From: a bacterium A37T11
GTDB lineage: Bacteria; Bacteroidota; Bacteroidia; Sphingobacteriales; Sphingobacteriaceae
DNA: 64,000 nt
Assembly (NCBI GenBank): GCA_900109895.1
Contig: FOBR01000003.1
Span: 62,001-126,000, forward strand
Direction: 5' to 3'
Below, piece by piece: positions 558-53,204 of the stretch (its first letter is position 1; every line of letters starts with the position of its first letter). Below the pieces are notes generated by a model. It was given only the letters and a program-made list of their open reading frames with translations. It searched no databases and was not told where the DNA came from. Position numbers and translations under genes: made by a program.

Positions 558-560
558 CAC

Positions 561-7674: not shown

Positions 7675-7680
7675 TATTCT

Positions 7681-11015: not shown

Positions 11016-11021
11016 ATTTGC

Positions 11022-30035: not shown

Positions 30036-30110
30036 GTACAAAACTACAGCTTTCACCAAGATCAAATTTTCCTATGATCCCAATTATTGGTAATACGGTA
30101 CCCACATGTC

Positions 30111-33100
30111 CTAATGAGTGCTGGCGGAAGCCTTCCCTTTTAGGGAATTTATATACTCTTTTGGAGTAACCTGGTATTGTTTTACAAAACTCTTGGAAAA
30201 ATAAGAAGGGGTGGCAAAACCAACTTCATAGGCTATTTGGCTGATGTTTAGTTTTCCTTCTTGCAATAGGTGGATTGATTTTTTTAAACGGATGTTTTTA
30301 ATATAATCATGCACTCCCATACCGGTTAGGGTTTTGAACTTTGCATACAGTACTGACCGGCTCATGGCCGTATACTCGCATATTTTTTTATAATCAAGGT
30401 CGGTTCTGGAAATATTTTCTTCGATATACGTAGTCATTTTTTCCAGAAATTCCTTGTCCACTATATTATAGTCTAGGCCTTCAGGGATCAGTTGGTCAGT
30501 AACGGCAAATTTTTTCCGCATTTTTTCCCTATTCTGGATAAAGTTGTAAATGATATGGAACAGCATTTTGCGGTTTATCGGTTTGGCCAAATACATATCG
30601 GCCCCCGCTTCGTAGGCAGATACCTGACTTTCTTCAGTCGTTTCGCCGGTAAGCAACAAGATAGGTATATGACTAGTTGCGATATTTTGTTTGGCCTCGG
30701 TGCAAAACTCCAGCCCATTCATGACCGGCATGATTAAATCTGTAACGATGAGATCCGGCTGAAATTCAATAGCGGCCAGGATACCCTCCCGTCCATCCCC
30801 TGCCTCCAGGATCTTAAAAACTTTTGCAAGCAACTTTTTTAAGAAACTACGTACATCTAAGTTATCATCTACTATCAATATCTGTTTGCCTTTTAAGAGT
30901 GCTTGTTGCGATTCAGAAAGCGGATAAAAATTGTCTGTCAACAAGTCAAAGGCGATATTAGCAGTTGTAGAAGGGGCAATTTCATGATTGAGACCCGCTG
31001 GTTCATTTTTCGGCAGCCGGATGCTAAACACAGACCCTTTACCTACCATACTATCTATATCGAGTGACCCACGATGTACTTTTATAAAATCCTGGCATAT
31101 CTCAAGTCCAAGACCTGTACCTGTTTCTCCAGCAGTTCCAGAAGAGACATATGCTTGTGAAGACCTAAGTTGCGTGAGCTGTAGGGCAGACATTCCAACA
31201 CCCGAATCTGCAATGGACAATACTAATTCATTATCTGTATTTGTAGCTGTCACGGTGATACTACCGCTAAAAGGAGTAAATTTAATGCTATTTCCCAGAA
31301 TATTCCTGATAATGGTATGGATCATTTGATAATCTGCATACCACGTTAGGGCCGGATCAATTTGAACCTTGCAGCTGATGTCTTTAGCATTTAGTTGGGT
31401 TTGGGCCAGATAAACATTTTTCATCACCAATTCATGCAGATTTAGCGACACAGGATGGTATTGCAGGATTTTGGATTGAGTTTTGGCCCAATCCAGCAAG
31501 TTAATGACCAAGTGATGCACTGATTCAGTAGAGCGGCTTATATCAGCCGCATAAGCACCTATCTCTGCCTGGGTGAGTTGCATCAGTCGCGTCTTAAGTA
31601 GGTTAGCGAGCCCGCTTAAGGCTCCTATCGGATTTTTGAGATCATGTGCCAGGATAGAAAAGAATTTATCTTTCGCGCGGTTGCTGGTCTCCAGTTCACT
31701 GACCGTAGACTCCAGCTGCTTGTTTTGCATCACAATGTGTTCCTGCTGTTCTGATAATTGCCTGGTGCGTACGGCAACCTTTTTTTCCAAAAGTTTATTT
31801 CGGGTTCTGACTGCAGACAGACGCAGGTAAAATATTCCTATAATGATGCTTGTGACGATTAAGAATAACAACGTATTAAACCACCATGTTTTCCAAAAAG
31901 GAGGAGTAATTACAATAGTCACCATTGCTGTCCTAGTAGACCACCGCCGCTCGTTGTCCAAACCTTTTACCTTTAATAAATAGGTGCCTGGATTCAGGTT
32001 CGTATAGGTTAGATTATTGCGGGTACCTAGCATATGCCAGGTTTTATCATATCCCTCAAGCTTATATACATATTGCTTTTTTTGGTTGGCGGTGTAATTC
32101 AGAGACGCAAATTCAAAAGAGAACACAGACTGCTTGTGCGATAAGACAATTTTCTTAAACTGCCCCACATGCACATCCTGATTAAAAAGCTGAAAATTGG
32201 TAAATATGATGGGTGGGTCAAAAGGAACCGCTTTTATTTGACCTGGCGTGAACACGTTAAAACCGTTGCTGCCTCCAAAATACATACGACCATGACTATC
32301 AAGGCATTTGGCGTACCTGAACTCATCAGCCTGAAGGCCATCAGCTGTTGTAAAGTTTTCAAAATTACCCTTAGCAGGATCCATTTTGCTCAAACCCTTA
32401 TTTGTACTGATCCATAGATAGCCTGACGGATCACCCAATACAGCACCAATGACATCATTGGCCAAGCCATTTGTAGCAAAATAAGATTTATTATCTAACC
32501 TATCTGGTTGAAATCGGTTTAAACCAAAACGAGTGCCCAACCATAAGTAGCCGGCCTTATCTGCATAGATAGAGTTTATAATATTATTGCTTAATTTATC
32601 TCCAGCTTTAAGCCGGGTTTTGTCGCTATAAGTAATAAAATCCTGTGTGAGTTCATTAAACATATTAAGACCGCCACCGTCAGTACCTATCCATAACCGA
32701 CCTCGGCGGTCCTCCTGTATACATAATATATAGTTACCGCTAATGCTTTTTAAATTGTTTGCCTCGTTTACATAGTGAGTAAACCGACGTTTTATAGGAT
32801 CATATAGATTCAATCCACCACCATACGTGCCCACCCACATTCTGTTTTTATGATCCTTATATACTGCAAAAGCATAATTATTGCTGATGCTGCCCGGATC
32901 AGCAGGGTCATTTTTTAAATGAATTAACTGGCCACCGGTATGGTCAAAAAGTACTACCCCATCCCCCCAAGTACCCAACCATAGCTTACGCTCAACGTCC
33001 TCGCTTATACTAAGCACATAATTACTGTGCATATTAGTTGCACCTTGATTCAGGCTGAAATGTTTGAATGATTTGTTTTTCGGAACAAACAAATTTAACC

Positions 33101-34229
33101 CGCCACCATCTGTGCCTATCCACACCCGTTTGCCGCTATCTTCAAAAATGCTGTTAACGATATTATTACTGAGGCTGGGCTGTTGCTGTTCATATTTAAA
33201 ATGAGCGAAACGTGTTTCATCAATGCTGATCATTGAAATACCCGCATTAGACGTGCCTAGCCACATATTTCCCTTTGAATCCCGTTTAATGCAATTGATC
33301 GTATTACTTCCAATACTTTGTTGGTCATTGTCTACATGTCTATAGGTCGTTGAAGCAGCAGTTTCTGGCCTGTAAATAAATAAACCAGCATTTTCAGATC
33401 CAATCCAGAGGTTTCCGCTGAGGTCTTCCTCCATGCATAACAAAAAATCCATCTGATGATTCTCGTTGCCTGTGCTATAAACTATGTGGTTGAAACGCTC
33501 ATTTTTTTGGTCAAACTGAAACAGCCCTCCGCCGTAAGTCCCTAACCAGAGTCTATTTTTACTATCTTCAAAAATAAAGGAGATGTGATCGCTTGTAAGA
33601 CCATGTTTCTGCGCACCATTGTGGCTGTATTGGAGCTTAAGACGGCCATCCGGATAAAATACGCTGACTCCGTCCTGGCTTGTGCCAACCCAAATATTTC
33701 CAAAATAATCCTTAGTTATACCAGAAACAGCAGAGCCCATCGGATACTGCCTGAATGTTGAATCACGCAGATTGTAACGGTAAAGTTTCTTATTACTGCC
33801 TATCCAGATATGTTGCTTTCCATCTTTATACAAATTTAGAATATTTGGACTGATCGATTTAACAGTATCCGTTGTATGAATAAATATTCCCGTTTGAAAG
33901 TTTAAAGTATTGACTCCCCCCTGAATAGTGCCTATCCAAAGCTGATCACCATGCTGCTGTAAAGCTTTAATGTCATTTGAATTAACAGAATTACCCAAAT
34001 GGGGTAATTTTCTATATACTGTAAACTGGTACCCATCGTATTTGTTAAGGCCATCACGGGTGCCAAACCACATAAAACCTGTGTTATCCTGAAAAATGCA
34101 CTGAACGTTTCCCTGAGAGAGACCTTCATTCGTGCCCAATTGTTTAAATTTAAGGTTTTGAAATTGACAATTTGCTTCTCCTACGATTAAATATAGGCAA
34201 AAAATCAGCAATATCTTTTTATTATTCAT
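30111..34229 (-). CDS. Hybrid two-component system (HTCS) regulator
   Basis: About 1372 residues. Order: signal peptide (MNNKKILLIFCLYLIVGEANC), two-bladed set of Reg_prop beta-propeller repeats (many WxGTxGGGLN motifs), a Y_Y_Y domain, one membrane segment (WWFNTLLFLIVTSIIIGIFY), HisKA with FFSILAHDLKNP (His near residue 850), HATPase (GTGLGLEI), a receiver domain with DLIVTDLIMP and an AraC-type HTH (YEVGFATPSYFSKSF). It senses a glycan in the periplasm and directly controls the polysaccharide locus. The start at 34229 is chosen because the signal peptide begins there; an earlier in-frame start would bury it. Confidence 0.95.
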   Translation of the reverse strand: MNNKKILLIFCLYLIVGEANCQFQNLKFKQLGTNEGLSQGNVQCIFQDNTGFMWFGTRDGLNKYDGYQFTVYRKLPHLGNSVNSNDIKALQQHGDQLWIGTIQGGVNTLNFQTGIFIHTTDTVKSISPNILNLYKDGKQHIWIGSNKKLYRYNLRDSTFRQYPMGSAVSGITKDYFGNIWVGTSQDGVSVFYPDGRLKLQYSHNGAQKHGLTSDHISFIFEDSKNRLWLGTYGGGLFQFDQKNERFNHIVYSTGNENHQMDFLLCMEEDLSGNLWIGSENAGLFIYRPETAASTTYRHVDNDQQSIGSNTINCIKRDSKGNMWLGTSNAGISMISIDETRFAHFKYEQQQPSLSNNIVNSIFEDSGKRVWIGTDGGGLNLFVPKNKSFKHFSLNQGATNMHSNYVLSISEDVERKLWLGTWGDGVVLFDHTGGQLIHLKNDPADPGSISNNYAFAVYKDHKNRMWVGTYGGGLNLYDPIKRRFTHYVNEANNLKSISGNYILCIQEDRRGRLWIGTDGGGLNMFNELTQDFITYSDKTRLKAGDKLSNNIINSIYADKAGYLWLGTRFGLNRFQPDRLDNKSYFATNGLANDVIGAVLGDPSGYLWISTNKGLSKMDPAKGNFENFTTADGLQADEFRYAKCLDSHGRMYFGGSNGFNVFTPGQIKAVPFDPPIIFTNFQLFNQDVHVGQFKKIVLSHKQSVFSFEFASLNYTANQKKQYVYKLEGYDKTWHMLGTRNNLTYTNLNPGTYLLKVKGLDNERRWSTRTAMVTIVITPPFWKTWWFNTLLFLIVTSIIIGIFYLRLSAVRTRNKLLEKKVAVRTRQLSEQQEHIVMQNKQLESTVSELETSNRAKDKFFSILAHDLKNPIGALSGLANLLKTRLMQLTQAEIGAYAADISRSTESVHHLVINLLDWAKTQSKILQYHPVSLNLHELVMKNVYLAQTQLNAKDISCKVQIDPALTWYADYQMIHTIIRNILGNSIKFTPFSGSITVTATNTDNELVLSIADSGVGMSALQLTQLRSSQAYVSSGTAGETGTGLGLEICQDFIKVHRGSLDIDSMVGKGSVFSIRLPKNEPAGLNHEIAPSTTANIAFDLLTDNFYPLSESQQALLKGKQILIVDDNLDVRSFLKKLLAKVFKILEAGDGREGILAAIEFQPDLIVTDLIMPVMNGLEFCTEAKQNIATSHIPILLLTGETTEESQVSAYEAGADMYLAKPINRKMLFHIIYNFIQNREKMRKKFAVTDQLIPEGLDYNIVDKEFLEKMTTYIEENISRTDLDYKKICEYTAMSRSVLYAKFKTLTGMGVHDYIKNIRLKKSIHLLQEGKLNISQIAYEVGFATPSYFSKSFVKQYQVTPKEYINSLKGKASASTH

Positions 34230-34372
34230 ATCCGTATCCAAAAATATTGAAATTAATTTGTAAAAATGGTTATTCGTTAATATTGGCGGATATTGATTGA
34301 AAAAATATTTCATTTATCAGGTTGATTTTTGAAAGAATTGCGAAATTACAAATTTTCAGGACTATTGGAAAT

Positions 34373-34437: not shown

Positions 34438-35241
34438 ATGCGGATAGCAATAAGTAGTGTAGGATTAATTTGTTGGATTCTTTCGGTACAAGCCCTACAT
34501 GCACAATCATTTTTTGATGATTTTACCGAAAAAAAACTAGATGGCTCAAGTTGGAAGAAAGTGAACAAAAAATGGGGTGAGAATGTGCTTAAAGGGACGC
34601 ATGGCGGAGTAATACCAGAAAATGTCTTTATAAAGGATGGCAATCTGGTCATAAGAGCCCACGGAGATGGGTATACTGGAAATATCTGGGGTCATGGTCA
34701 GCAAACCAAGGTAGGTGGTGCCGTTTTTAGCCGAAAGAAGTTTGCTTCTGGATGCTATGAGATCCGGGCCAAAATCTGTCCACAAGTGGGCGCCTTATCT
34801 GCATTCTGGACTTATCACTATGAAAGCGACACCTGCAATCATGAGATCGATTTTGAATTTCCAGGACACAATCAGCCTCCTAAAAGGCCTGAAACATCCG
34901 ATATTACGTGGGGCTTAATGACCAATTGGCGAGGGGTGAGCGATGCCATGCATAGAAATGCAGACGTCTATTTTGGCAATCAGCAAGACGGCCATTATCA
35001 CCTATATCGTTTTGAGTGGCACACCGGAGGAGAGGGGATTAAACCCAGTGTATCCTGGTATTACGACGATCGGCTGATGCATACGTCCTACGAAATGATA
35101 CCCACAATAGCCTCGGAGCTTTGGCTTGGCGTATGGTTCCCAAATTGGATCGGACAAGCAAATTTTGCAGTAGACTATATGTATATTGATTGGGTTAAAA
35201 TAACCGAATACCACGAGCCAGCTGATAAATGGACAAAGTGA
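34438..35241 (+). CDS. GH16 family glycoside hydrolase
   Basis: 267 residues: signal peptide ending around HAQS, then a jelly-roll GH16 domain. The catalytic motif ExDxE is visible as HEIDFEFPG, with upstream FWTYHY and downstream FEWHTGG and SYE strands. GH16 enzymes cut beta-1,3/1,4-glucans or galactans, including sulfated galactans such as agars, porphyrans and carrageenans; the exact substrate cannot be told. It is first in the rightward operon, 21 nt before the SusC gene. Confidence 0.92.
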   Translation: MRIAISSVGLICWILSVQALHAQSFFDDFTEKKLDGSSWKKVNKKWGENVLKGTHGGVIPENVFIKDGNLVIRAHGDGYTGNIWGHGQQTKVGGAVFSRKKFASGCYEIRAKICPQVGALSAFWTYHYESDTCNHEIDFEFPGHNQPPKRPETSDITWGLMTNWRGVSDAMHRNADVYFGNQQDGHYHLYRFEWHTGGEGIKPSVSWYYDDRLMHTSYEMIPTIASELWLGVWFPNWIGQANFAVDYMYIDWVKITEYHEPADKWTK

Positions 35242-35262
35242 ATAACTTAAACTACAAACTAT

Positions 35263-38200
35263 ATGAGATTACGTAATACAACTAAAAACAGATACTGTAA
35301 GCGGATCATGAAGGCATGGCCTATCACGCTATCCGTGGGATTGCTGATGACGAGTATGACGGCTCCATGGACATTGCTGCAGGTCAAAGCGAGACCGTTT
35401 ACGTTAGGACATCCCCAGCAAAGGGAGATCAAAGGTACCGTCACAGATGAAGAAAACAACGTATTGGCCGGTGTAACAGTCAAGATTAAAGGGTACAAAA
35501 ACGCTACCACGACAAATGTAAATGGACAATACCGCGTTCAAGCTGTTGCCGGGAGTATTCTGGTCTTTTCAATGGTAGGCTATACCGACAAAGAGCTGAC
35601 CGTAGGAAAGGATGATAAGGTTGACGTCAAACTAAGTCTTATGGGTAATCAATTGGACGAAGTTATGGTAGTGGGTTACGGGTCAAAAAATAAAAGTAAG
35701 TTTACAGGATCTGCGATCACATTGAACGCAGAAAATTTGAACAACTCTTCCTTATCACTGGCCAATATGCTACAAGGCAGAGCCGCGGGCGTCTCGGTAA
35801 GCCAAAATAACGGAACGCCAGGAGCGCCTTTGTCCATCCGGATCAGGGGAACTAATTCGCTAAATGCAGACAGTGAACCCCTCTATGTGGTGGATGGTTT
35901 TCCGGTAAACAATGGAGTTGGATTTACACTTAACCCCGATGATGTAGCCTCGTTAACTATTTTAAAAGATGCGGCTTCCACGGCGATATATGGTGCCCGA
36001 GGAGCTAATGGGGTCATTTTAGTCACGACCAAAACAGGATCCAACAAAAAAAGCAGCTTAATCTTTCATGGCTATGGTGGTTTTCAAAAGGTCATTAATC
36101 GTTTCAACCTCATGAACGGGTATGAAAACGCATTGCGGCTAAATGAAATTGATCGTCAAGAAGGCAATACTCTTGCCTACAAAGAAGGACGTCTCGATTC
36201 CCTGAAGCAGGGACTGTTAGGTACCAACTGGCAGGATCAGGTATTTCAAACCGCCAGCGTGCAGAATTATCACCTAAGTGTAGAAGGCGGAGGACCAAAA
36301 ACGAATGCTTTTTCAAGTTTCGATTATATGGACCAGTCGGGCGTAGTTGTGCATTCCAACTATAAGCAACTTGGCGGCAGGGTAAATATCAACCACGAGG
36401 TCAATGATCAGATCAAGATGTCTGCCCGCGTATTTGGAAACTACGGCATACAAAACGATTTGCCACTTGCTCCTTCTACCGTCAATGGATTTTTAAAGCA
36501 AGTATTAAAAGCTAATCCCGCTTCCACCTTTGACAGCGGTATCTCTCCAGAGCGCGATGCTCAAAATCCACTGCATTTTTTTGAGGCTGAAGACCGTGAA
36601 AATACAGCATACCGTACCCAAGCCTATTATTCGCTGCAATACGAGCCTATTAAAAATCTGGTTTTTAAATCTGATTTTGGAGCAGATCTTACCCGGTCGG
36701 AAATCGACTATTTTGCACCATCCACGGTTCCCAATGCTTCGGCCACCAATGGTAAAGGGTCTATCACCAATATCAGTGAGCAGGAACTGCTGATCAACCC
36801 AACTGCAAATTATAAATTTACTGCCGAAGACCACCATGCATCAATCATGTTGGGCTACAATGCGCAAAATTATACCTATAAAGAAGCAGGAACTACGGCC
36901 ACAAACTTTAGTAGTGACGCGCTCGGGTATGACAACTTAGCCACAGCACAGCAATTTTCTTCGTATTCCGGCAAATCCAGGATAAAACGTAAAAGTTGGT
37001 TTGGCCGTGTTGACTACGATTATAAAAATAAATATATCTTTACCGGTACCTATCGCATAGATGGTTCCTCTGTATTTGGAGATAACAATAAACTGGGGTA
37101 TTTCCCATCCGCAGCAGTAGCCTGGAATTTTTCAGAAGAGGAATTTATGAAGGATGTACCTGTGCTAGGAAAAGGAAAACTCAGGGCCAGTTATGGTATT
37201 ACTGGAAATGATCGTATTAGTTCGGGTATTTCACTAGCAACTTTTGCCAGCGATAATTCGACCAAATATACCTTTGACGGAGGATCAACCGTATCCGGCA
37301 TTGCCATCACCCGCCTTTCGAACCAGTATCTCAAATGGGAAAATACCCAAGCACTTGATGTAGGATTAGACCTTGGACTTTTCAATGACAGGCTTTCCTT
37401 TGAAATAGATTATTACCACAAAAACACCAATGATCTGCTATTGGACAGAAGTATTGCCCCATCTAATGGCTTTAAGTCACGTTTTGGAAATTCAGGCGAG
37501 GTAGCCAACCAAGGGTGGGAGTTTTTTGTGCAGTCTACCAATATTCAGCACGGAGGATTTAGCTGGAAAACCACACTTTCCTTTGCCATTAACCATAATA
37601 AAGTAAAATCGTTGGGAACAAACAACTCTGATATTTATGTAGGCACATTTAAACCCGATGGTTCGGCTAACTTTGAGTCTCCTTTTATTATTCGTGTAGG
37701 GGAGCCAATAGGAGCGATCTATGGTTATATATACGATGGTATCATTCAAGAAAATGATCCGGTACTTGCCACGACCCATCCTAATTCCACGGCAGGCGAC
37801 CCCAAATTTGTGGATCTGAACAACGACGGCATCCTAAATGCCGACGATCGCAAAATACTAGGAACTGGCGTGCCAAAGGCCAATATCGGCTTTACCAACA
37901 GTTTTGCCTACAAAGGATTTGAAATGGAAATCGTCATGCAGGGGCAAACGGGCGGAAGCTTGATAAACGTACAAAAGGTAGATCTATTAAATCCCGTCAG
38001 CCGGGGCAACGGCCTAAAACAATTGGCCACAGATACCTGGACGACTACCAATACAACTGGGTCCATTCCCACTAAAGGATTTTATGGAACGTCCCATGGC
38101 GGCTGGGTTAACTCAAGATTTGTAGAAAGTTCAGACTATTTGCGTATTAAAAATATTACGTTAGGCTATACCTTACCCGAAAGATTAACCAAACGATATG

Positions 38201-38391
38201 GATTGTCTGTCCTTAATTTTTATGTCAATGCGCAGAACCTCATAACATGGACCGGTTACAGCGGGCTGGATCCGGAGGTTGGCAATCTGGCCGACAATTC
38301 ACAACTAAGCAGGAATGTGGCCAGGGGTATCGACTTTAATGCGTACCCAGTGGGAAGAATGTATGTATTTGGGGCTAAAATCACGTTTTAA
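35263..38391 (+). CDS. SusC/RagA-type TonB-dependent outer-membrane transporter
   Basis: 1042 residues. After a signal region comes a CarboxypepD_reg-like domain (IKGTVTDEENNVLAGVTVKIKG), the SusC signature DEVMVVGYGSKNK (TonB box/plug start), the plug domain with LYVVDGFPVNN and GARGANGVILVTTK, then a 22-strand barrel. It ends in a Phe-terminated strand (VFGAKITF), the BAM signal. It imports oligosaccharides with the SusD partner 10 nt downstream. The N terminus is long; a start at the Met of MKAWPITLS (35308) is an alternative. Confidence 0.95.
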   Translation: MRLRNTTKNRYCKRIMKAWPITLSVGLLMTSMTAPWTLLQVKARPFTLGHPQQREIKGTVTDEENNVLAGVTVKIKGYKNATTTNVNGQYRVQAVAGSILVFSMVGYTDKELTVGKDDKVDVKLSLMGNQLDEVMVVGYGSKNKSKFTGSAITLNAENLNNSSLSLANMLQGRAAGVSVSQNNGTPGAPLSIRIRGTNSLNADSEPLYVVDGFPVNNGVGFTLNPDDVASLTILKDAASTAIYGARGANGVILVTTKTGSNKKSSLIFHGYGGFQKVINRFNLMNGYENALRLNEIDRQEGNTLAYKEGRLDSLKQGLLGTNWQDQVFQTASVQNYHLSVEGGGPKTNAFSSFDYMDQSGVVVHSNYKQLGGRVNINHEVNDQIKMSARVFGNYGIQNDLPLAPSTVNGFLKQVLKANPASTFDSGISPERDAQNPLHFFEAEDRENTAYRTQAYYSLQYEPIKNLVFKSDFGADLTRSEIDYFAPSTVPNASATNGKGSITNISEQELLINPTANYKFTAEDHHASIMLGYNAQNYTYKEAGTTATNFSSDALGYDNLATAQQFSSYSGKSRIKRKSWFGRVDYDYKNKYIFTGTYRIDGSSVFGDNNKLGYFPSAAVAWNFSEEEFMKDVPVLGKGKLRASYGITGNDRISSGISLATFASDNSTKYTFDGGSTVSGIAITRLSNQYLKWENTQALDVGLDLGLFNDRLSFEIDYYHKNTNDLLLDRSIAPSNGFKSRFGNSGEVANQGWEFFVQSTNIQHGGFSWKTTLSFAINHNKVKSLGTNNSDIYVGTFKPDGSANFESPFIIRVGEPIGAIYGYIYDGIIQENDPVLATTHPNSTAGDPKFVDLNNDGILNADDRKILGTGVPKANIGFTNSFAYKGFEMEIVMQGQTGGSLINVQKVDLLNPVSRGNGLKQLATDTWTTTNTTGSIPTKGFYGTSHGGWVNSRFVESSDYLRIKNITLGYTLPERLTKRYGLSVLNFYVNAQNLITWTGYSGLDPEVGNLADNSQLSRNVARGIDFNAYPVGRMYVFGAKITF

Positions 38392-38401
38392 TAAAATCGC
38401 T

Positions 38402-39976
38402 ATGCAATTAATAAAATATAACCATCGGAACTTTCTTTTAGCTATTGTCGCATTGCTGGCATCGGCATGCACCAGTGGATTAGAAGACGAGACCTATTCC
38501 GTATATGATGCCAATACACTTACCGACCCCAATAGCGGTGAACTCGCCGTACGTGGGACCTACGCAAGCCTTAAAGACAATGGAGGCTTTGGTTACTATG
38601 CCGGCTACCTATACTGGCTTAATGAATACCCGGGCGAAGTGGTATCTGCAACATTAACCTCCAGGCAGGGAGTGCAGCTGGACCAGTTAACTTATGATGC
38701 CAGCAATTCAACGATCAATGACGTTTGGTCAAGTATCTACCGATTGATATCAAGAGCCAATGAATCAGAAGCCTTGATTTCCGCCATTGACTACGTAGGA
38801 AATGGCTCTTCTGCTGCGCTTAAGGCACAACATTTAGGAGAGGTTCGTTTCTTGCGTGCGCTAGCTTATTACGATGCAACCTCTCTTTGGGGAGGTGTAC
38901 CGTTGCTGAATAAACCCTCTTCAGAATCTAAAGAAGCAGATGAAAACCCGGCAATCACTGACCAGGCTACCATAGAAGATTTTATAATCAGTGACCTGCA
39001 ATTTGCAGAAGCTAATCTGCCGGAGTCATTTGAAGCAGCACAGATTGCCAGGGCCACCTCAGGTGCCGCAAAAGCCCTGTTAGGCCGTTTGTATTTGCGG
39101 CGGATGGAATGGCAAAAGGCAGCTGATAAGCTACAGGAGATTATAGGCAAAGGGTATGACCTGCGTACGAGAGCTGAAGGGGGCATAGTGTCGTTGTTTG
39201 ATAAAAGCAACCGCTCAGACAATGAGTTCATCTTTGTGTTGAAATCCTCCAATGAAAGTGGTTCTTACACCATAAATTCAAATAGTTTTGGTATCAATTC
39301 TACACCCTGGGATTATAATCGGGGATGGGGGAATTTTCCTATCCTTCTGAACTTTTATGCCTTATTTGATCCGACAGATGATCGCAGGAAACTACTTACT
39401 GGCAAATATACTACCATTTATGGGCAGATTGAAGCCGTTTCTAAGGAGTATGGTGGGGAAGCTACCGAAGCGGGTAAGGATACCATTATCGCAAAATACG
39501 TGTATAACCTCAAATACCCGCAAGCCGGCAATTATGATTATGCCGGATTTAATAATGTGCCCATCATTCGTTATTCTGATGTGCTTATGATGCGTGCAGA
39601 AGCTCTTAATGAGCTAAATGGTATTAACCAAGAGAGTGTCGACTTGCTCAATCAGGTAATTAACCGCAGCGGTTTGCCTTCATATAGTTTGGCTGACTTT
39701 GCCAATACTGACGCATTGCGGGATGCTATTTTTGAAGAACGCAATAAGGAGTTCTTTATGGAAGGACGAAAGCGGGATGATTTGATTCGGTGGGGTAAGT
39801 CAGCCAGTCATGGGACAGATCCACTAATTAAATTTAAGGAAAAGGTAGTACCCACTCTCACCAATGCTAGCAGTTGGTCAGACAACGTCAATTATATGTA
39901 CTATCCTTACCCCCAAAGCGAAATACAGAGCAATACTTCGCTAGGCGCAGATATAAACAAAGGAAGGGTAAAATAA
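38402..39976 (+). CDS. SusD/RagB-type glycan-binding lipoprotein
   Basis: About 524 residues from the ATG at 38402, where a lipoprotein signal (LLAIVALLASAC) begins. SusD features include VRGTYASL, the helical TPR-like part FLRALAYYDATSLWGGVPL, RATSGAAKALLGRLYL and the C-terminal IFEERNKEFFMEGRKRDDLIRWGK. It caps the SusC barrel outside the cell and binds the glycan. The frame is open further upstream within susC, but the lipobox fixes the start. 30 nt separate it from the arylsulfotransferase. Confidence 0.95.
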   Translation: MQLIKYNHRNFLLAIVALLASACTSGLEDETYSVYDANTLTDPNSGELAVRGTYASLKDNGGFGYYAGYLYWLNEYPGEVVSATLTSRQGVQLDQLTYDASNSTINDVWSSIYRLISRANESEALISAIDYVGNGSSAALKAQHLGEVRFLRALAYYDATSLWGGVPLLNKPSSESKEADENPAITDQATIEDFIISDLQFAEANLPESFEAAQIARATSGAAKALLGRLYLRRMEWQKAADKLQEIIGKGYDLRTRAEGGIVSLFDKSNRSDNEFIFVLKSSNESGSYTINSNSFGINSTPWDYNRGWGNFPILLNFYALFDPTDDRRKLLTGKYTTIYGQIEAVSKEYGGEATEAGKDTIIAKYVYNLKYPQAGNYDYAGFNNVPIIRYSDVLMMRAEALNELNGINQESVDLLNQVINRSGLPSYSLADFANTDALRDAIFEERNKEFFMEGRKRDDLIRWGKSASHGTDPLIKFKEKVVPTLTNASSWSDNVNYMYYPYPQSEIQSNTSLGADINKGRVK

Positions 39977-40006
39977 GAGAATTTTGCTTATTTTGCAGCA
40001 AAAAAA

Positions 40007-41419
40007 TTGAATAAAAAACACTTGTTCATTACGGTGGCAGTCTTGCTGGTTGCTGGATTATCACTACTTTTTCGTCAGGAGCTCAGGGATCTGTTCGGAC
40101 CTTTACGCATCAGTCACATGGAATTGGTTAAATCTCCAGCTAACAGGCTGCGATTTGAAATTAAGGTAAATACCACCAGGGCGTGCAGGACGCAACTTAA
40201 GTACTGGATAAAAGGTAGTCATGATACGCTATATTCAACAGTATCTGCCGAAGGAAAGATACACCGGTTGTTTATGAGCAATACCAGGGCCCGGAAGCAT
40301 TATTCATTTTGTGTGTTGGCTACTAACGGCAAACGACGGGTTGCCAGTAAAATATACCCGGTTGAAACGCAACCGATATATCAGGCTACTCCTTATTTCA
40401 CGCTAGCCTATTCAGACCCGTCCATTGCCGGTGATCTGGCCCATACATATTTTCTTACCCAAATTCTCACTGAGCCCGGATCTGTTGTCATTATTGACCA
40501 CCAAGGCGATATTGTGTGGTACGAAGCCTTTTTAAAGGGTGTGAAGGTGAGTCATTGGACTAAGGACCGCACCGTATTATGTATTGTGGGACCAGAAAGC
40601 ATCCCATCTTCAGGAGGTGATGAGATTGTGGAATTAGGGCTTGACGGAAGAGTACTGCTCCACCTAAAGAAAGGCGAGGGCGACATGGATAAATTGGTGC
40701 ACCACGAAGTAAGGAAAGACCGCGACGGTAATATATATGCCATGACCTTTACCGCTAAGGTTGCCGATTTGTCGTCGGTCAAAGGGCTTCGCCAGGATAC
40801 GGTCAAAGGCGACGGCATTGTCCTGTTTAATAAACGAGGTAAAAAGCTTTGGGAATGGTCAGCACTAGACCACCTTGATCCATTAAGTAACCCAAATATA
40901 ATGATAGATAAAAAAGATTGGGGGCATGGCAACGCGCTGTTCCGGCTTGAGGATGGAAATTTTTTGTTCTCTTTTAGAGATCTTAATCAGATTTGGAAGG
41001 TCGCCTATCCTTCTGGTAAGGTGTTGTGGAAGTTCGGAGAACAGGGCGACTTTCAGATGGATCCCAATTCCATGTTCAGTGCCCAGCACTCCATTCACAT
41101 CACAGCCGATGGGCATTACATGCTGCTAGACAACGGCGATAAAACCAAAATCTCCCGGGCTTTGGTATTTGACCTTGATACGGTAACTAAAGAAGCTAAA
41201 ACACTGCATACAGTGACTTTACCTGCAGAATACTACAGTACTGTAAAGGGGAATACCGCCCTTTTTGGTAAAAATCGCGTGCTTTTTTGCCTGACAGACC
41301 CACGGGCTTTTCTAATAACAACAATGGACGGGCATGTCTTGTGGAAATTACAAGTCGGGGGAGATCCATACCGGTTAGAAGAAATCCCCGGTTTTGAAAT
41401 TACTAAACCCGCATTTTGA
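40007..41419 (+). CDS. Arylsulfotransferase (ASST) family protein
   Basis: 470 residues with one N-terminal membrane or signal segment, then a six-bladed beta-propeller of the ASST family. Key blocks: HHEVRKDRDGNIYAM, WEWSALDHLDP, DWGHGNALF, FSFRDLNQIWKV and the FSAQHSIH block whose His corresponds to the sulfated catalytic His. ASST enzymes move sulfate from a phenolic sulfate to another phenol without PAPS, in the periplasm. The start appears to be TTG at 40007. It overlaps the ChrA start (TGATG). Placement behind a SusCD pair is unusual. Confidence 0.85.
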   Translation: MNKKHLFITVAVLLVAGLSLLFRQELRDLFGPLRISHMELVKSPANRLRFEIKVNTTRACRTQLKYWIKGSHDTLYSTVSAEGKIHRLFMSNTRARKHYSFCVLATNGKRRVASKIYPVETQPIYQATPYFTLAYSDPSIAGDLAHTYFLTQILTEPGSVVIIDHQGDIVWYEAFLKGVKVSHWTKDRTVLCIVGPESIPSSGGDEIVELGLDGRVLLHLKKGEGDMDKLVHHEVRKDRDGNIYAMTFTAKVADLSSVKGLRQDTVKGDGIVLFNKRGKKLWEWSALDHLDPLSNPNIMIDKKDWGHGNALFRLEDGNFLFSFRDLNQIWKVAYPSGKVLWKFGEQGDFQMDPNSMFSAQHSIHITADGHYMLLDNGDKTKISRALVFDLDTVTKEAKTLHTVTLPAEYYSTVKGNTALFGKNRVLFCLTDPRAFLITTMDGHVLWKLQVGGDPYRLEEIPGFEITKPAF

Positions 41420-42651
41420 TGGAGATTCAAAAACCTGTCAGTCTTTCATACCTTTTCCTCACGTTTCTAAAAATTGGGGTAGTGTCTTTCGGTGGCCACA
41501 TGGCGCTTATCGCCATTATCCAGCGCATTATGGTTGAAAAAGACCAGACCACCAATGCCGGACTCATCCTGAAAAGCATCGGGATAGCCAGTCTATTACC
41601 CGGGCCGTTGGCCGTCAATGTCGTTGGGCAAGTAGGCTATGGCCTGCGGAAAGGCCCTGGAGCACTGGTCAGTACGGTAGCCGTCATCCTGCCCGCATTT
41701 TTGCTCATGCTGCTATTGTCATGGGCATATTTTTCCTATCAGGAAACCCTGAACTGGAAGGATGCCATGACCTACGTTGGTGGCGTCGTGACTGCCATTA
41801 TCGTGGCCTCCGGCATCCAACTATCTAAAAATACAGTCAATAACAATCCCAAGAAAATAGCCATATGCCTGGTAACCTGCGTGCTGTTGCTTATTTTTGA
41901 TAGTTATTTGCTTACAGTTGGTCTATTGATAGCCGGTGGTGTAGCAGGTATATGGCTTCAAGTGGAGGGTACGGCAGCGGGAACACCATCCGTCAGCACC
42001 CCGTCACCCAGCTATCCAGACAATGAGCAGCAGGGTAGGAGCTGGTGGAGCAAGCTTACCTTGCTAGCCCTACTCGTTAACGAGGCGCTGTTTTTGATGA
42101 ATGCCTATAAAGGTATCGACAATGGGAAACTTAAGCTGCTGCTCATTTTTTCAGGAATCAGCCTTTCATTGTTTGGGGGCGGATACGTAATGGTTCCTAT
42201 TATGCAGACCCTGTTTGTACAGGATCTGCAATGGCTTACCAGCAAAGAATTTGTAGATGCCATTGCATTTGGACAAGCCACCCCTGGCCCCATCCTCATC
42301 AGTGCCACATTTATTGGGTATAAAGTGGCCGGAGTAGTCGGAGCTACAATAGCCACAGCAGCTATATTCTTCCCTTCGGTTTACCTGGTCATCAGCGTAA
42401 CCTCCATCTTTGATAAATACCAGCACAATCAGTGGCTTCGTCAGGCATTAGGAGGTATTAAAGCCGCCGTAGTGGGACTCATTCTGGCATCAGCCTACAA
42501 GGTAGTTGCCCACGAAACTTGGTCGCCCCTATTTATAGCCGTCATCACCGTATCGTTTATTATAAATTTCCGATTCCGCATTAGTCCCGTATACCTTATT
42601 ATTGGGGCCATCTTGCTGGGAATCTGGATGCACCATTTCAACTATAAATAA
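41419..42651 (+). CDS. chrA: ChrA-family (CHR) anion transporter
   Basis: 410 residues with two homologous halves: FLKIGVVSFGGHMALI and LLPGPLAVNVVGQVGY in the first, FSGISLSLFGGGYVMVPIMQ and FGQATPGPILISATFIGY in the second, around 10-12 membrane segments. The long bidomain form matches chromate transporters. Chromate mimics sulfate, and every neighbour handles sulfate groups, so sulfate or a related anion may be the real substrate (inference). The ATG at 41419 shares one base with the upstream stop; the next gene starts 1 nt after its stop. Confidence 0.88.
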   Translation: MEIQKPVSLSYLFLTFLKIGVVSFGGHMALIAIIQRIMVEKDQTTNAGLILKSIGIASLLPGPLAVNVVGQVGYGLRKGPGALVSTVAVILPAFLLMLLLSWAYFSYQETLNWKDAMTYVGGVVTAIIVASGIQLSKNTVNNNPKKIAICLVTCVLLLIFDSYLLTVGLLIAGGVAGIWLQVEGTAAGTPSVSTPSPSYPDNEQQGRSWWSKLTLLALLVNEALFLMNAYKGIDNGKLKLLLIFSGISLSLFGGGYVMVPIMQTLFVQDLQWLTSKEFVDAIAFGQATPGPILISATFIGYKVAGVVGATIATAAIFFPSVYLVISVTSIFDKYQHNQWLRQALGGIKAAVVGLILASAYKVVAHETWSPLFIAVITVSFIINFRFRISPVYLIIGAILLGIWMHHFNYK

Positions 42652-42652
42652 T

Positions 42653-43696
42653 ATGCACACATCATCAGGCATACAAATTATTGGCACACAACGGTCAGGA
42701 TCAAACCTGCTAAGGGTCATTCTGGACCAATCGGCAGAAATTGCCTCACCCCATCCACCACACACATTGACCACATTTATGCCTTTATTGCCGTTATATG
42801 GCAAATTGAATGCTGAAAGTTACCGGACGTTGGTGAGCGACGTGGTTGATTATGTCTCTGTAAATCCAGTGCCTTGGGAAGGAGTGGATCTGGATAAAGA
42901 TGCCATATTCTTTCATTCCACTCGTTATTCTCTGATGGAACTCAACAAGCTGATCTATGAAGCCGCCGCTGCCAGTAAAAATGCCACTTATTGGTGTTGT
43001 AAGAGCATGGGCAATGTCCATTATGCCCGAGAACTGGCCACAGCGTCGCCACAGTTGAAATATGTATTCTTATACCGGGATGGCAGGGATGTGGCTGCAT
43101 CCTTTAAAAAAGCGGTCGTTGGTGAAAAGCACAGCTATCACCTAGCCCTTCAATGGAAAAAAGACCAGCTGGCTTGCATCCATTTGCGGGAAAAACTCCC
43201 GGCCGATCAGTTTTATGCGCTCAATTATGAGACTTTGATCGCCGATCCAAAACAAACCGTTCAAGAACTGTGTCAATTTCTAGGAATAAAGTATGTAGAT
43301 TCCATGCTGAATTTTTACGAGTCACGTACTTCCAAGCTAGCGGCAGAGGCTGGTGAGATGTGGAGCAACTTGAAAAAACCCATTATGCCGCACAATAGCG
43401 GCAAGTACAGAGAGGTATTTAATGGAGATGATTTGGCCATCTTTGAGGCCGTTGCGGGGGAAGTACTGCAAAAGTTAGGCTATGCTCTTCACAGCGATAT
43501 CTGGGCATCAAGCTCGGCCACACGCGAAGCCCTCCTTACAACAGAAAAGCATGCACATTACGCTACTATCAATGCCCGATTAAAGGCAGAGGTGCTGGAG
43601 AAAGCTAACCCAGCCGATCTAGCCAACCGCCTCCCCCAGGAGCAGATCATAAAGCGAATAAGAATGAGGAACGGCGCCTTAAACCAACCGATATGA
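42653..43696 (+). CDS. PAPS-dependent sulfotransferase
   Basis: 347 residues. The 5'-phosphosulfate loop is IIGTQRSGSNLLR (residues about 9-21) and the 3'-phosphate motif is FLYRDGRDVAASFKKA, with the following Ser of the family fold. The family transfers sulfate from PAPS to a hydroxyl of a carbohydrate, lipid or other acceptor in the cytoplasm. There is no signal peptide. The ATG at 42653 is 1 nt after chrA and the stop overlaps cysQ by 4 nt (ATGA), so PAPS use and PAP removal are coupled. Confidence 0.88.
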   Translation: MHTSSGIQIIGTQRSGSNLLRVILDQSAEIASPHPPHTLTTFMPLLPLYGKLNAESYRTLVSDVVDYVSVNPVPWEGVDLDKDAIFFHSTRYSLMELNKLIYEAAAASKNATYWCCKSMGNVHYARELATASPQLKYVFLYRDGRDVAASFKKAVVGEKHSYHLALQWKKDQLACIHLREKLPADQFYALNYETLIADPKQTVQELCQFLGIKYVDSMLNFYESRTSKLAAEAGEMWSNLKKPIMPHNSGKYREVFNGDDLAIFEAVAGEVLQKLGYALHSDIWASSSATREALLTTEKHAHYATINARLKAEVLEKANPADLANRLPQEQIIKRIRMRNGALNQPI

Positions 43697-44442
43697 AGCC
43701 AAACGCGGAGATTTTGTCGGCCATAGCTGTAGCGGCCGGAAAGGCGATTATGACGGTCTACAACGGGCCGTCCGTTGAGGTATGGGTTAAAGAAGATCGG
43801 TCGCCCCTTACCCTTGCCGACCAGTTGTCACACGAAGTTATTGTATCGGCATTAAAAGCGCATTATCCAGATGTGCCGATCCTTTCAGAAGAAGGGGCAT
43901 CTATTCCTTACAGCGAGCGAAAAAACTGGACTGAATTCTGGTGTGTTGACCCCCTGGATGGCACGAAAGAATTTATAGGTCGGAATGGCGAATTTACGGT
44001 GAATATTGCGCTGATAAGAAAACGGATGCCTGTATTTGGTGTTATTTATGTTCCCTGCCAGGATTTGTTGTATTATGGCGATGCGGACGGTTGTTATAAA
44101 CAAGTTGCCGGCGGGGAGGTGGTGCGTATACATACAGACCAGACCTCAAGTTCATGGACCGCTGTCGGGAGCCGCTCGCATGCGGATCAGGCCGAGCAGG
44201 ATTTGTTAAAGAAATACCCTGTTGACCGGCAGGTAACTATTGGCAGCTCGTTGAAATTTTGTCTGATCGCAGAAGGCTCTGCACACCTCTATAACCGGAA
44301 AGGGCCAACAATGGAGTGGGATACTGCGGCCGGCCAAGCCATTGCAGAAGCCGCTGGTGCGGTCATGGAAACAGACCTGCATACACCGCTCTGCTACAAT
44401 AAAGAGTCTTTAACCAACGGAAGTTTTATTTGCCATGTGTAG
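43693..44442 (+). CDS. cysQ: CysQ, 3'(2'),5'-bisphosphate nucleotidase
   Basis: 249 residues of the inositol-monophosphatase superfamily. Metal and substrate motifs: LSEEGA, DPLDGTKEFI and the C-terminal EWDTAAGQAI. CysQ converts 3'-phosphoadenosine 5'-phosphate, the by-product of sulfotransferases, to AMP. Its ATGA overlap with the sulfotransferase gene makes functional sense. The last 33 nt overlap the 3' end of the convergent cysC gene. Confidence 0.93.
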   Translation: MKPNAEILSAIAVAAGKAIMTVYNGPSVEVWVKEDRSPLTLADQLSHEVIVSALKAHYPDVPILSEEGASIPYSERKNWTEFWCVDPLDGTKEFIGRNGEFTVNIALIRKRMPVFGVIYVPCQDLLYYGDADGCYKQVAGGEVVRIHTDQTSSSWTAVGSRSHADQAEQDLLKKYPVDRQVTIGSSLKFCLIAEGSAHLYNRKGPTMEWDTAAGQAIAEAAGAVMETDLHTPLCYNKESLTNGSFICHV

Positions 44443-44976
44443 CCTTGCCATTACCGCTTGAAAAATGTCGTTGGCACAAGCCTCCGGCGAATCCAAGTTG
44501 GTGTGAGCGGTGTGATGGGGTGTTGATGGCGGTTCAAAGGAGGAACTGATACCCGTAAAATTAGGTATAAGCTGTTGCATGGCTTTTTGATATAGGCCTT
44601 TCGCGTCTCGTGCTATGCATTTTTCAAGTGGGCAGTCTACGAAAACTTCCCAATAGTTTTCTCCCAAAATGTTGCGTGCAATACAACGGTGACTGGCCAT
44701 CGGGGTAATAAGGGAGCAGATGGTGATGATGCCGTTTTTACTTAATAAATGGGCAATTTCGGCGGTTCTTCGTACATTCTCTGCTCTTGATTCTTCCGAA
44801 AATCCTAGGTCTGCATTTATTCCATGCCTTAGCTCATCGCCGTCCAGGCGTACACATACATACTGTTGAGTGCTTAATAACTCGTCAAGCAATTTGGCCA
44901 GCGTAGTTTTCCCTGCCCCGGATAAGCCCAAAAGCCAGATAACAATTCCCTCTTTCTGTGTTGTGGATTTATTCAT
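44410..44976 (-). CDS. cysC: CysC, adenylylsulfate (APS) kinase
   Basis: 188 residues. Walker A is WLLGLSGAGKTTLAK; further APS-kinase motifs are LDGDELRHGINADLGFS, SRAENVRR and FVDCPLEKCIARDAKGLYQKA. It phosphorylates APS to PAPS, the donor for the sulfotransferase encoded opposite. It is convergent with cysQ and overlaps its 3' end by 33 nt, so the two cannot be fully transcribed at once without collision. No ATP sulfurylase (cysDN or sat) gene is in the window. Confidence 0.95.
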   Translation of the reverse strand: MNKSTTQKEGIVIWLLGLSGAGKTTLAKLLDELLSTQQYVCVRLDGDELRHGINADLGFSEESRAENVRRTAEIAHLLSKNGIITICSLITPMASHRCIARNILGENYWEVFVDCPLEKCIARDAKGLYQKAMQQLIPNFTGISSSFEPPSTPHHTAHTNLDSPEACANDIFQAVMARLHMANKTSVG

Positions 44977-51500: not shown

Positions 51501-53204
51501 GCTGCAATAGCCAGGTGCGGTTATTGATATCAATATCGGTGAGGTCAGGCCTTTTCTCTACCCATGAAAACAATTCAATGAATGAATGAACGGAATCTTC
51601 ATTGTCAGGAATTTGCACCCCTATTTGGGGTGCTAAGTTTGCCGTGTAACTCATGAGCGCTTCACAAGCTTCAGCCGCAGTGGACAATATTTCTAAAAAA
51701 AAAGTCTGTTCATGGGGATGAAATACGGTCAGTTTTGTGCCGTAAAATAATAATTCAACAGGTTGCCCAATATCCTTCAGCCTCGCTTGTATGTTGTCAG
51801 CTATATCTTCTGCACGTCTCATCCGTTCAGAATCCCATGTTTCGGGATGGTCAATGGGAATTTTAGGAAGTTCATGTTGACCCCGCTGTTGTTCAATGTT
51901 TAACAGGTTACCCATGATCTGTTGGGGGGATAACGCACTTTTTTGAAAAGTGGTGTTTACGGCGTCACAGTAAGCATTCAGTGCTGTTTTATAACCATCG
52001 AGTAACTGTACTTCAGCTTCAAGTTGGGCTAAAGTAGGTTTCCCTAATTCAAGTACACGCTTCAATTCATCATGCAGGTCACGCTTATTGGCTTTGTGGC
52101 TGTGTAGTTCAAGGCACGCCTCTCCTAAATGGATGCTATCCATCCGCCTCTTGACCACCTCCAGTGCGGCCATTTTTTCAGCAACAAACAACACTTTCTT
52201 TCCATGGCCAATGGCATTCGCTAAAATGTTGGTAATGGTTTGTGACTTTCCGGTGCCCGGAGGCCCCTGTATGACCATGTTCCTTCCCTCATGCACTGCA
52301 AGCATGGCTAAAACTTGGGAACTGTCTGCATCGACTACTTGAAAAAGCTGGTCTGCGATGGTATCCCGGTCAATATGATCTTCATCCGAAGCGGTGGGCT
52401 GCGGCTCATTAAACCCATCGCCAAATAAAGCGCTGATGACTCCGTGCTTTTCAGGCTTTTGTTCATCTGGCCAATTATCTTGGTCAAGATCATTGTATAT
52501 CATGAATTTACCAAAAGAGAAAAATCCAAGTTCAATATCGTCTCCCTCCACACTCCATCCGTTTTCTTTCCGTATCCGCTCGGCAATATCTTGATAATAA
52601 GCGTTCACATCCAGGTCCTCCACATCCGGCAATTCAGGGATGGTCATGTTATATTCTGCCATCATTTTGGCTTGTAGCGATAGGTTAGCCCCAATTTCGC
52701 TACCAGCGTATTTTAGCCTGAACCGCTCACTGGCGCTTGACCTTTCTAACGTGACAGGTATAAGGATGAGTGGGGCTTTCCTAATCTCTTTTTCATTTCC
52801 TTTTTCATACCAGTTGAGCATTCCCAAAGCGAGGTAAAGTATATTTGTTCCTTGTTCTTCAATACTGGTCCGCGCAAAATAATAAGTATTCAGAATTTTC
52901 GCTTGTAGTTTGCTTTCGGATGCATTGGTCTGGAGTCTATTGTCAAAATAGGCATCACGTTGCTGCTCATCAGATAGGGGGGTAAGGACGGTAATGGGCC
53001 ATTTTCTGTTTCCTCAATAGTATCCGGCCTTCCAAGAAAGGTCATGGATTTAGTTAATTTAACAAGAATATCAAAGATGGCCGCAGATTTTTCCTGGACG
53101 ATGTGAAGTCCCCGGGCTTTTGGAATTTTATAATTAAGCAGGCTATTTCTCATACTGAGATCCAGCAACTCTTTTCTCGAAGATTCTAATTTTGGGGAAA
53201 TCAT
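48535..53204 (-). pseudogene. Large DUF4011/UvrD-like helicase-nuclease (DUF3320), one-base frameshift
   Basis: Two frames make one protein of about 1556 residues. The first 75 or so codons (from 53204, ESSRKELLDLSMRNSLLNYK) are DUF4011. The second frame begins with DEQQRDAYFDNRLQ and EEQGTNILYLALG, then ATPase motifs GPPGTGKSQTITN, LIIFDEASQVRPVEALG, VVVGDSRQLPPTSFF, LENVQGDERDVMFIS and NVLITRAKYR (SF1), a Vsr/MTES_1575-like nuclease domain (GSSGFYIDLAIVDP, LLGIQCDG) and DUF3320. The shift lies in a G run at 52977-52982. Such proteins are widespread in genomic islands and are suspected defence factors. Sequencing error, phase variation or true decay are open. Confidence 0.85.
52977..52982 (-). 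other. Homopolymer tract where the helicase gene shifts frame
   Basis: Six G on the plus strand (C6 on the coding strand). With seven, codons LPPL would lead straight into SDEQQRDAYF and restore the full protein. With six, translation ends at 52890. Confidence 0.8.

Follow-up and report, generated by a model that had tools for sequence, protein, structure and literature searches.

We analyzed a 64,000-nucleotide stretch of the genome of bacterium A37T11 (Sphingobacteriaceae; assembly GCA_900109895.1, contig FOBR01000003.1, positions 62,001 to 126,000), hereafter called the window, which carries ten genes for nutrient uptake and sulfate handling. The locus is conserved and made up of two modules: module A comprises SusC, SusD and ASST, and module B comprises ChrA, a sulfotransferase (ST) of the type that depends on 3'-phosphoadenosine 5'-phosphosulfate (PAPS), CysQ and CysC. 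The genome (5.09 Mb, 60 contigs) is 97.5% complete. All ten genes are present, and Pfam and NCBIfam profile matches fit the names given to them in an earlier reading of the letters without database searches (the sequence-only reading). They are as follows, with adenosine 5'-phosphosulfate abbreviated as APS and 3'-phosphoadenosine 5'-phosphate as PAP:

27525..30065, minus strand: GH20 hexosaminidase-type enzyme (PF00728, 3e-86); accessory, varying among relatives
30111..34313, minus strand: HTCS, a hybrid two-component regulator (Reg_prop, Y_Y_Y, HisKA, HATPase_c, Response_reg and an AraC-type HTH, HTH_18)
34438..35241, plus strand: GH16 enzyme (PF00722, 1.3e-10; motif E136-I-D-F-E140); accessory
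35263..38391, plus strand: SusC, module A (TIGR04056, 836.7 bits)
38402..39976, plus strand: SusD, module A (PF07980, PF14322); open reading frame (ORF) listed from 38315, ATG 38402 being the likely start
40007..41419, plus strand: ASST, module A, a PAPS-independent-type sulfuryl transferase (PF05935, 84.1 bits, cut-off 24.2; PF14269, 79.4 bits)
41416..42651, plus strand: ChrA, module B (PF02417 in two stretches, 254.9 bits; TIGR00937, 243.2 bits, cut-off 171.7)
42653..43696, plus strand: ST, PAPS-dependent type, module B (PF13469, 105.4 bits, 6.8e-30; PF00685 over its cut-off)
43693..44442, plus strand: CysQ, PAP phosphatase, module B (TIGR01331, 273 bits, cut-off 228.8)
44410..44976, minus strand: CysC, APS kinase, module B (TIGR00455, 188.4 bits, cut-off 138.7)

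From GH16 to CysQ, the genes lie on one strand with all gaps at 30 nt or less and several overlaps. The gaps measure 21 nt between GH16 and SusC, 10 nt between SusC and SusD given the start at ATG 38402, 30 nt between SusD and ASST (which starts with TTG), and 1 nt between ChrA and ST, while ASST overlaps ChrA (for which ATG at 41419 is a possible alternative start) and ST overlaps CysQ by 4 nt. CysQ and CysC are convergent, their 3' ends overlapping tail to tail, and GH20 and the 1400-aa HTCS lie divergently upstream of GH16. Coordinates and profile matches agree with the order, spacing and orientation described in the sequence-only reading, as well as with its statement that PAPS-dependent (PF13469) and PAPS-free (PF05935) sulfotransferase types occur together. 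Its claim of PAPS synthesis and PAP removal holds for the APS kinase and CysQ but not for ATP sulfurylase, which is absent from the locus. On contig 20 of the same genome, two adjacent PF01507 genes were found, which from their size are probably CysH and CysD and would serve to make APS.

To describe conservation, we used a sample of 201 genomes of the family, in which the window's own genus is represented by this genome alone. Genes around relatives were taken as longest non-overlapping ORFs in stretches of at most 20 kb, several of which were ended by contig ends. ST occurs in 15 of the 201 genomes, the window's own included; these are called ST-positive and the remaining 186 ST-negative. 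At all 15 loci ChrA adjoins ST, with ASST and SusD nearby, and CysQ and CysC are present at 14. Ten loci follow the order SusC-SusD-ASST-ChrA-ST-CysQ-CysC (variant 1). Among them, the L028 contig stops short of SusC, a second GH16 separates ST from CysQ in L029, and neither CysQ nor CysC was seen in the stretch of L030, which has an APS kinase about 14 kb from its ST on the same contig. In the other five (variant 2, L031-L035), ChrA-ST-CysQ-CysC is followed by a SusC-SusD-ASST set about 33% identical to that of the window; in L032 one further gene separates ST from CysQ, and the ASST of this locus, which runs off the end of the stretch, was confirmed by a separate ASST search. The full set was also found in named records of two similar Mucilaginibacter, of Flavihumibacter and of one Sphingobacteriales metagenome-assembled genome (MAG), and a Cyclobacteriaceae MAG carries SusC-SusD-ASST-ST with no ChrA on its 11-kb contig. 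A chance neighbourhood was rejected, because the order recurs in Sphingobacteriaceae, Flavihumibacter and the Sphingobacteriales MAG and partly in a second family. The sequence-only reading had suggested looking for the same gene order in other Bacteroidota, and it would have been contradicted by relatives in which the sulfur genes are not kept with SusCD. Within the family this outcome did not occur: all 15 ST-positive loci keep the sulfur genes near SusCD-ASST (with the one contig that ends before SusC).

Searches with single genes gave a similar picture. At E<=1e-60, SusD had 12 matches in the 201 genomes, ten of them at 62-100% identity and all ten in ST-positive genomes (nine other genomes at 62-75%); of the remaining two, at 36-38% identity, one is ST-positive and one ST-negative. 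For ASST, 26 matches at E<=1e-15 were obtained, 15 in ST-positive and 11 in ST-negative genomes. Homologs of the window's GH16, GH20 and HTCS were seen at only 5/15, 5/15 and 9/15 loci, respectively (in stretches of at most 20 kb or limited by contigs), and these genes are therefore regarded as accessories; none of the three was found in the five variant-2 stretches, where the sulfur genes are kept. GH20 homologs adjoin the cassette in L036-L039. The window shows the features of a polysaccharide utilization locus (PUL), namely a SusC/SusD pair, carbohydrate-active enzymes (GH16, GH20) and a linked regulator (HTCS), as the sequence-only reading had described, but the glycan enzymes fall outside the conserved core. 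In GH16, E136, D138 and E140 are invariant among nine aligned sequences, and its sequence matches in the PDB are mostly beta-glucanases; its structure model is poor (mean predicted local distance difference test, pLDDT, of 68). A lipoprotein-like protein lies near seven cassettes, two of them near-duplicates (for example L020:12423-13217, minus strand; L026:7434-8255, plus strand; L037:16377-17264, minus strand); the L020 and L026 copies have a GH16-like ExDxE motif (HEMDIEF), and the L020 copy has no Pfam match.

Beyond the family, a search of the phylum with the ST profile gave hits in 6 of 395 genomes at 1e-30: the window's own, G248 of the second family (f8), and four distant ones (L047-L050), which lie among glycosyltransferase genes as judged by eye and were excluded from the cassette counts. 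No relatives of ST were found in viral contigs. In f8, 13 of 118 genomes have an ST at E<=1e-50. ChrA adjoins this ST or lies one gene away in 12 of the 13, and the remaining ST is at a contig end. ASST lies within the stretch in 9/13, and SusC and/or SusD homologs in 8/13, some loci being without SusCD. No CysQ or CysC homologs were seen in the 13 stretches, four of which are shorter than 13 kb. APS kinase was detected in 25 of 26 f8 genomes tested (13/13 with ST and 12/13 without, the latter chosen by hand from 105). Because the f8 loci retain ChrA beside ST although neither CysC nor CysQ was seen there, ChrA is tied to ST and not to PAPS synthesis itself. In seven f8 loci (L127-L130, L132, L134 and L135), a sugar-nucleotide-epimerase-like gene is located within a few kb of ST; the block also holds clpX-like genes and in many cases lpxB-like ones (named by eye).

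The tie between ChrA and ST is also evident from ChrA itself. When the window ChrA was searched against the 201 genomes, 15 near-full-length matches of 207-881 bits were obtained, all at ST loci, and the next match scored 90.5 bits. Matches above 200 bits thus occur in 15/15 ST-positive and 0/186 ST-negative genomes (Fisher p 6e-23, the genomes not being independent). In a tree of 47 ChrA sequences, 30 cassette ChrAs (17 from the window, its family and the named relatives, 12 from f8 and one from Serratia plasmids, described below) are split from 17 others (15 from the window's family and two from plasmids) with a branch support of 99; the tree was built with a quick method and gave long-branch warnings that included the Synechocystis, P. 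putida, L046 and Serratia rows. Residues that are fixed or nearly so in cassette ChrAs and rare in the others are V67 and N68 after P62-G63-P64, I293 and K303 after P290-G291-P292, and G178, S249 and G255. Position 68 is N in cassette ChrAs versus Q or E in 16 of the 17 others, and position 303 is K versus mostly L or Q. By tree and bit scores, cassette ChrA is a separate clade that does not group with ordinary ChrA. No plasmid match to the window ChrA was found at 1e-40. The nearness of a ChrA to sulfotransferases on Synechocystis pSYSM was not counted as evidence, because the genes directly beside this ChrA are those for ArsR, an FAD oxidoreductase and DUF302.

As to what this ChrA may carry, chromate is a sulfate analogue. 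E. coli expressing SULT and cysDNCQ was described as appearing starved for sulfate (PMC6731281), and a sulfate importer was proposed for the Bacteroides cholesterol-sulfation cluster (PMC9417993). Based on the analogy and these two reports, inward transport of inorganic sulfate is favoured as the probable role of ChrA; export of a sulfated product is considered less likely.

Two TRANSFERASES were examined at the locus, ST and ASST. ST contains the invariant motifs IQIIGTQRSGSNLLR (GTQRSGSNLLR) and RDGRDVA-x-S among 18 sequences, which we take to be PAPS-binding motifs. Among proteins of solved structure, ST is nearest in sequence to the CurM sulfotransferase, a polyketide synthase entry and protein-tyrosine sulfotransferases. 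The ASST model (pLDDT 91.4) consists of an N-terminal hydrophobic helix, an N-terminal beta domain and a beta-propeller. In structure it matches Cpz4 best (Z 35.1 and 34.1) and E. coli ASST next (3elq, Z 30.8-31.4), after which Z falls to 22.8; E. coli ASST was not among the best 50 Foldseek rows, its Z of about 31 coming from a second structural comparison. In a hidden Markov model alignment, ASST and Cpz4 share the same letters at H307-x-N309, R324 and Q360-H361. ASST also has an H232-H233-E234 motif, of which H232 and H233 are invariant in 17 sequences, and R324 is replaced by Tyr in four variant-2 rows and by Phe in L024. E. coli ASST is reported to be transiently sulfated at His436, with His252, His356, Asn358 and Arg374 nearby (PMC13426309); correspondence to His356, Asn358, Arg374 and His436 was assigned by motif and not by residue-level superposition. 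With a hydrophobic helix at residues 3-21, and with relatives carrying a hydrophobic anchor or a lipobox, ASST is predicted to be exported. The anchor type was rejected as a marker of ST-positive or ST-negative genomes, as each of the two sets contains lipobox as well as membrane-anchor forms; two lipobox flags look spurious.

Several observations bear on the supply of PAPS. The window genome has a single APS kinase match (PF01583), which is the CysC of the cassette. At E<=1e-30, APS kinase is found in 45 of the 201 family genomes, comprising 15/15 ST-positive and 30/186 ST-negative ones by hand count (Fisher p 2e-11); at E<=0.001 the number rises to 79/201, many of these matches being weak and partial. 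The simplest reading is that the cassette supplies CysC itself in lineages that lack the enzyme. Since APS kinase occurs at E<=1e-30 in only 45/201 genomes, PAPS seems not to be needed for assimilation in this family, and a role of CysC and CysQ in ordinary assimilation was judged unlikely. Moreover, in L022, a Sphingobacteriales MAG, ST and CysQ are fused into one 621-aa protein (9962-11827, plus strand), a strong indication from sequence that the two act jointly.

Both modules have free-standing relatives. In the 11 ST-negative genomes with ASST (L071-L081), a SusC-SusD pair precedes ASST (seen by BLAST in ten; in L075 BLAST identified SusC, and SusD was recognized by eye). The stretches around ASST contain no homologs of ChrA, ST, CysQ or CysC, so that these are SusC-SusD-ASST sets without PAPS genes. 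In L072, genes for a SoxA/TsdA-type cytochrome c, GH123_N and DUF5107 follow ASST, and the other ST-negative loci look alike by eye. A relative of module B was found on the plasmids of Serratia JSRIV004 and JSRIV002, in the order ATP sulfurylase/APS kinase-TauE/SafE-ST-CysQ-ChrA, with an ST of 40% identity:

L136:6988-13029 and L140:1897-7938: Serratia plasmid cassettes on conjugative plasmids from river water, near transposase genes

In JSRIV004, transposase genes flank the cassette on both sides (IS30 as annotated; the left one recognized by eye). The Serratia set is possibly a mobile PAPS-sulfation cassette. Pairwise protein distances fit two modules: Pearson coefficients are 0.93 for SusD-ASST, 0.93 for ST-CysQ, 0.87 for ST-ChrA and 0.83 for ST-ASST, and the Spearman values are 0.83, 0.89, 0.58 and 0.70, respectively. 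These correlations ignore shared ancestry, and the near-duplicates L018 and L038 were left out of them and of the tree.

A number of these results weigh against a single joint system. Module A lives without module B, as the 11 ST-negative genomes show, no ASST or SusCD lies beside the Serratia cassette, and the f8 loci L125 and L131 have no ASST in 20 kb (L127 and L135 being limited by contigs). Given these three sets of loci, the two modules may be mere neighbours. Even within module B, the distances of ChrA and ST agree just moderately by rank, the window's CysC is encoded on the opposite strand, and an additional strong APS kinase match is present in three of the 15 ST-positive genomes (G056, G115 and G172). 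The sequence-only reading had described an uptake operon fused with a sulfate-transfer pathway; "fused" is an overstatement in view of module A alone, of ST-CysQ-ChrA alone on the Serratia plasmids and of f8 loci without SusCD. ChrA, which the sequence-only reading had suggested may move sulfate, is tied to ST at 15/15 ST-positive family loci.

Taken as a whole, we consider it probable that the locus adds sulfate, as two modules under a nutrient-uptake regulator, and module B most likely carries out this addition. The direction, which the sequence-only reading had raised as one of two possibilities, is supported by the PAPS cycle, namely the cassette's own APS kinase and the ST-CysQ fusion, and not by a missing sulfatase. 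That reading had noted no sulfatase, and none was seen in the ten genes and the scanned neighbours (a scope short of every ORF of the window), but the genome has at least 23 PF00884 matches, and each of the 15 ST-positive genomes has at least one; this family also includes other enzymes. CysC would convert APS from a housekeeping ATP sulfurylase into PAPS, ST would pass on the sulfuryl group in the cytosol, presumably from PAPS, to an acceptor that may be a small hydroxyl compound or a precursor of glycans, and CysQ would remove the inhibitory PAP. The dedicated ChrA-family carrier would move an anion for the module B pathway. SusC-SusD would import an outside ligand, and the predicted exported ASST would shift sulfate between small molecules in the periplasm. 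HTCS, the presumed sensor of the inducer, would presumably respond to the imported ligand by activating the set, if the genes are co-regulated. The presence of a near-complete sulfate-attaching gene set inside a nutrient-import operon in several Bacteroidota suggests that sulfate is added once the operon is on.

The two modules could also be coupled more closely, in a relay across two compartments: ST would form an aryl sulfate in the cytosol, which would be exported, perhaps by ChrA, and used by ASST to sulfate an imported ligand or a surface molecule. The closeness of ASST to Cpz4 in fold and sequence, its presence at 15/15 ST-positive family loci and in 9/13 f8 stretches, and the correlation of ASST and ST distances (shared ancestry included) speak for it, but 11 family genomes have ASST and no ST, the Serratia cassette has no ASST beside it, and ASST follows SusD more tightly than ST. 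No type III polyketide synthase was seen among the genes scanned around the cassette (at 26-53 kb of the window, the rest of the genome not being searched). As the free-standing modules count against an obligate relay between ST and ASST, we regard this coupling as tentative; the same applies to the system being a TonB-linked, Gram-negative variant of such a relay, with a PAPS-dependent ST that has its own PAPS cycle and a CHR carrier, and a Cpz4-like ASST beside SusCD. A phase-II-like detoxification, in which ST sulfates a toxic phenol entering with the nutrient and ChrA exports the conjugate, would agree with the retention of ChrA beside ST even without CysC nearby and with the location of the module B relative on two conjugative plasmids near transposases, as is typical of adaptive traits. 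However, export of a bulky organosulfate by a CHR carrier would be unusual and no toxic substrate is indicated, which makes this explanation unlikely.

Less probable still are two explanations in which the locus removes sulfate or merely carries the sulfur genes. If SusCD imported sulfated compounds for scavenging, ASST would strip the sulfuryl group, ChrA would import the sulfate, and CysC and CysQ would serve assimilation; the ST-less sets beside GH123_N, DUF5107 and SoxA/TsdA-type cytochrome genes (L072, and others by eye) would suit such a use. Nevertheless, ASST-type enzymes are described as transferring and not hydrolysing (PMC13426309), it is ST that defines the cassette loci, and strong APS kinase matches are scarce in the family, and we therefore consider scavenging improbable. 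A PUL for breaking down a sulfated glycan, in which the sulfur genes would only be carried along, could be read from GH16, GH20, HTCS and SusCD, but the homologs of GH16, GH20 and HTCS are the varying part and were not found in the five variant-2 stretches, in which the sulfur genes stay, leaving little probability for this explanation as well.

Addition of sulfate by this locus would link nutrient uptake to sulfation in environmental Bacteroidota, in which such uptake loci are usually read as desulfating or degrading. Recognition that one clade of "chromate transporters" is linked to a sulfotransferase would alter the annotation of such genes; if the relay reading is true, this clade would represent a new transporter function within CHR, a sulfate or organosulfate carrier dedicated to sulfation. 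The compact cassette, once seen on plasmids, offers a handle for finding new sulfated metabolites, and two-step sulfation fuelled by PAPS could be studied with it in organisms other than actinomycetes.

Elsewhere in the window, a defence-type block at 93-14273 contains DarT and DarG (PADLOC, 2e-41 and 1e-120), an SMC-like ATPase that matches LmuB/JetC weakly and belongs to a set of four genes (the remaining three being without PADLOC matches), a UG5-type reverse transcriptase with a separate nitrilase gene (the two being fused in the PADLOC model), and a helicase. A 1430-aa helicase-nuclease at 48535-52827 (minus strand) matches PADLOC PDC-S37 (1843 bits) and Hhe and has DUF4011, MTES_1575 and DUF3320. 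The ORF at 17969-18475 (minus strand) consists of repeated EYGN/EYSS-type units and is probably a tandem repeat.

Among known systems, the closest published relative is the Bacteroides cholesterol-sulfation cluster BT_0411-BT_0416, in which a sulfotransferase is described together with putative genes for making PAPS and a gene proposed to encode a sulfate importer (PMC9417993). The window locus likewise has a sulfotransferase-family enzyme with conserved PAPS-binding motifs and, in CysC, a gene of PAPS synthesis, and its ChrA-family carrier may be a counterpart of the importer; it differs in that its ATP sulfurylase probably lies elsewhere in the genome, and no SusCD, ASST or ChrA is named in the description of the Bacteroides cluster on which, rather than on sequences, this comparison is based. 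The caprazamycin enzymes Cpz8 and Cpz4 likewise pair a PAPS-dependent ST with a PAPS-independent ASST (PMC6731281, PMC13426309), Cpz4 drawing sulfate from an intermediate sulfated by Cpz8 (PMC6731281), and Cpz4 is the solved structure closest to the window ASST. They are described as belonging to an antibiotic pathway of Streptomyces in which a triketide pyrone serves as the carrier, whereas no carrier gene was seen in the window locus, where the set is tied to TonB-type uptake and ChrA. With bacterial ASST/AST enzymes (E. coli ASST; B. vulgatus AST, whose sequence was not compared), the window ASST shares the PF05935 propeller, the conserved His and predicted export, but it lies in an operon with SusCD and a PAPS-ST cassette. 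With PULs the locus shares SusC/SusD, HTCS, GH16 and GH20, but its conserved part is sulfate handling and not glycan breakdown. ChrA shares with CHR chromate transporters the two halves of PF02417 and a TIGR00937 score over the cut-off, but belongs to its own clade with other residues after both PGP motifs, and no partner gene for chromate resistance was found in the window operon. No account of a combined SusCD, ASST and PAPS sulfation system, or of a chromate transporter-sulfotransferase operon in Bacteroidetes, was found in the open-access literature searched. The locus combines known kinds, namely a PAPS-ST cluster, a PUL and an ASST, and its most surprising part is the sulfation-linked ChrA clade.

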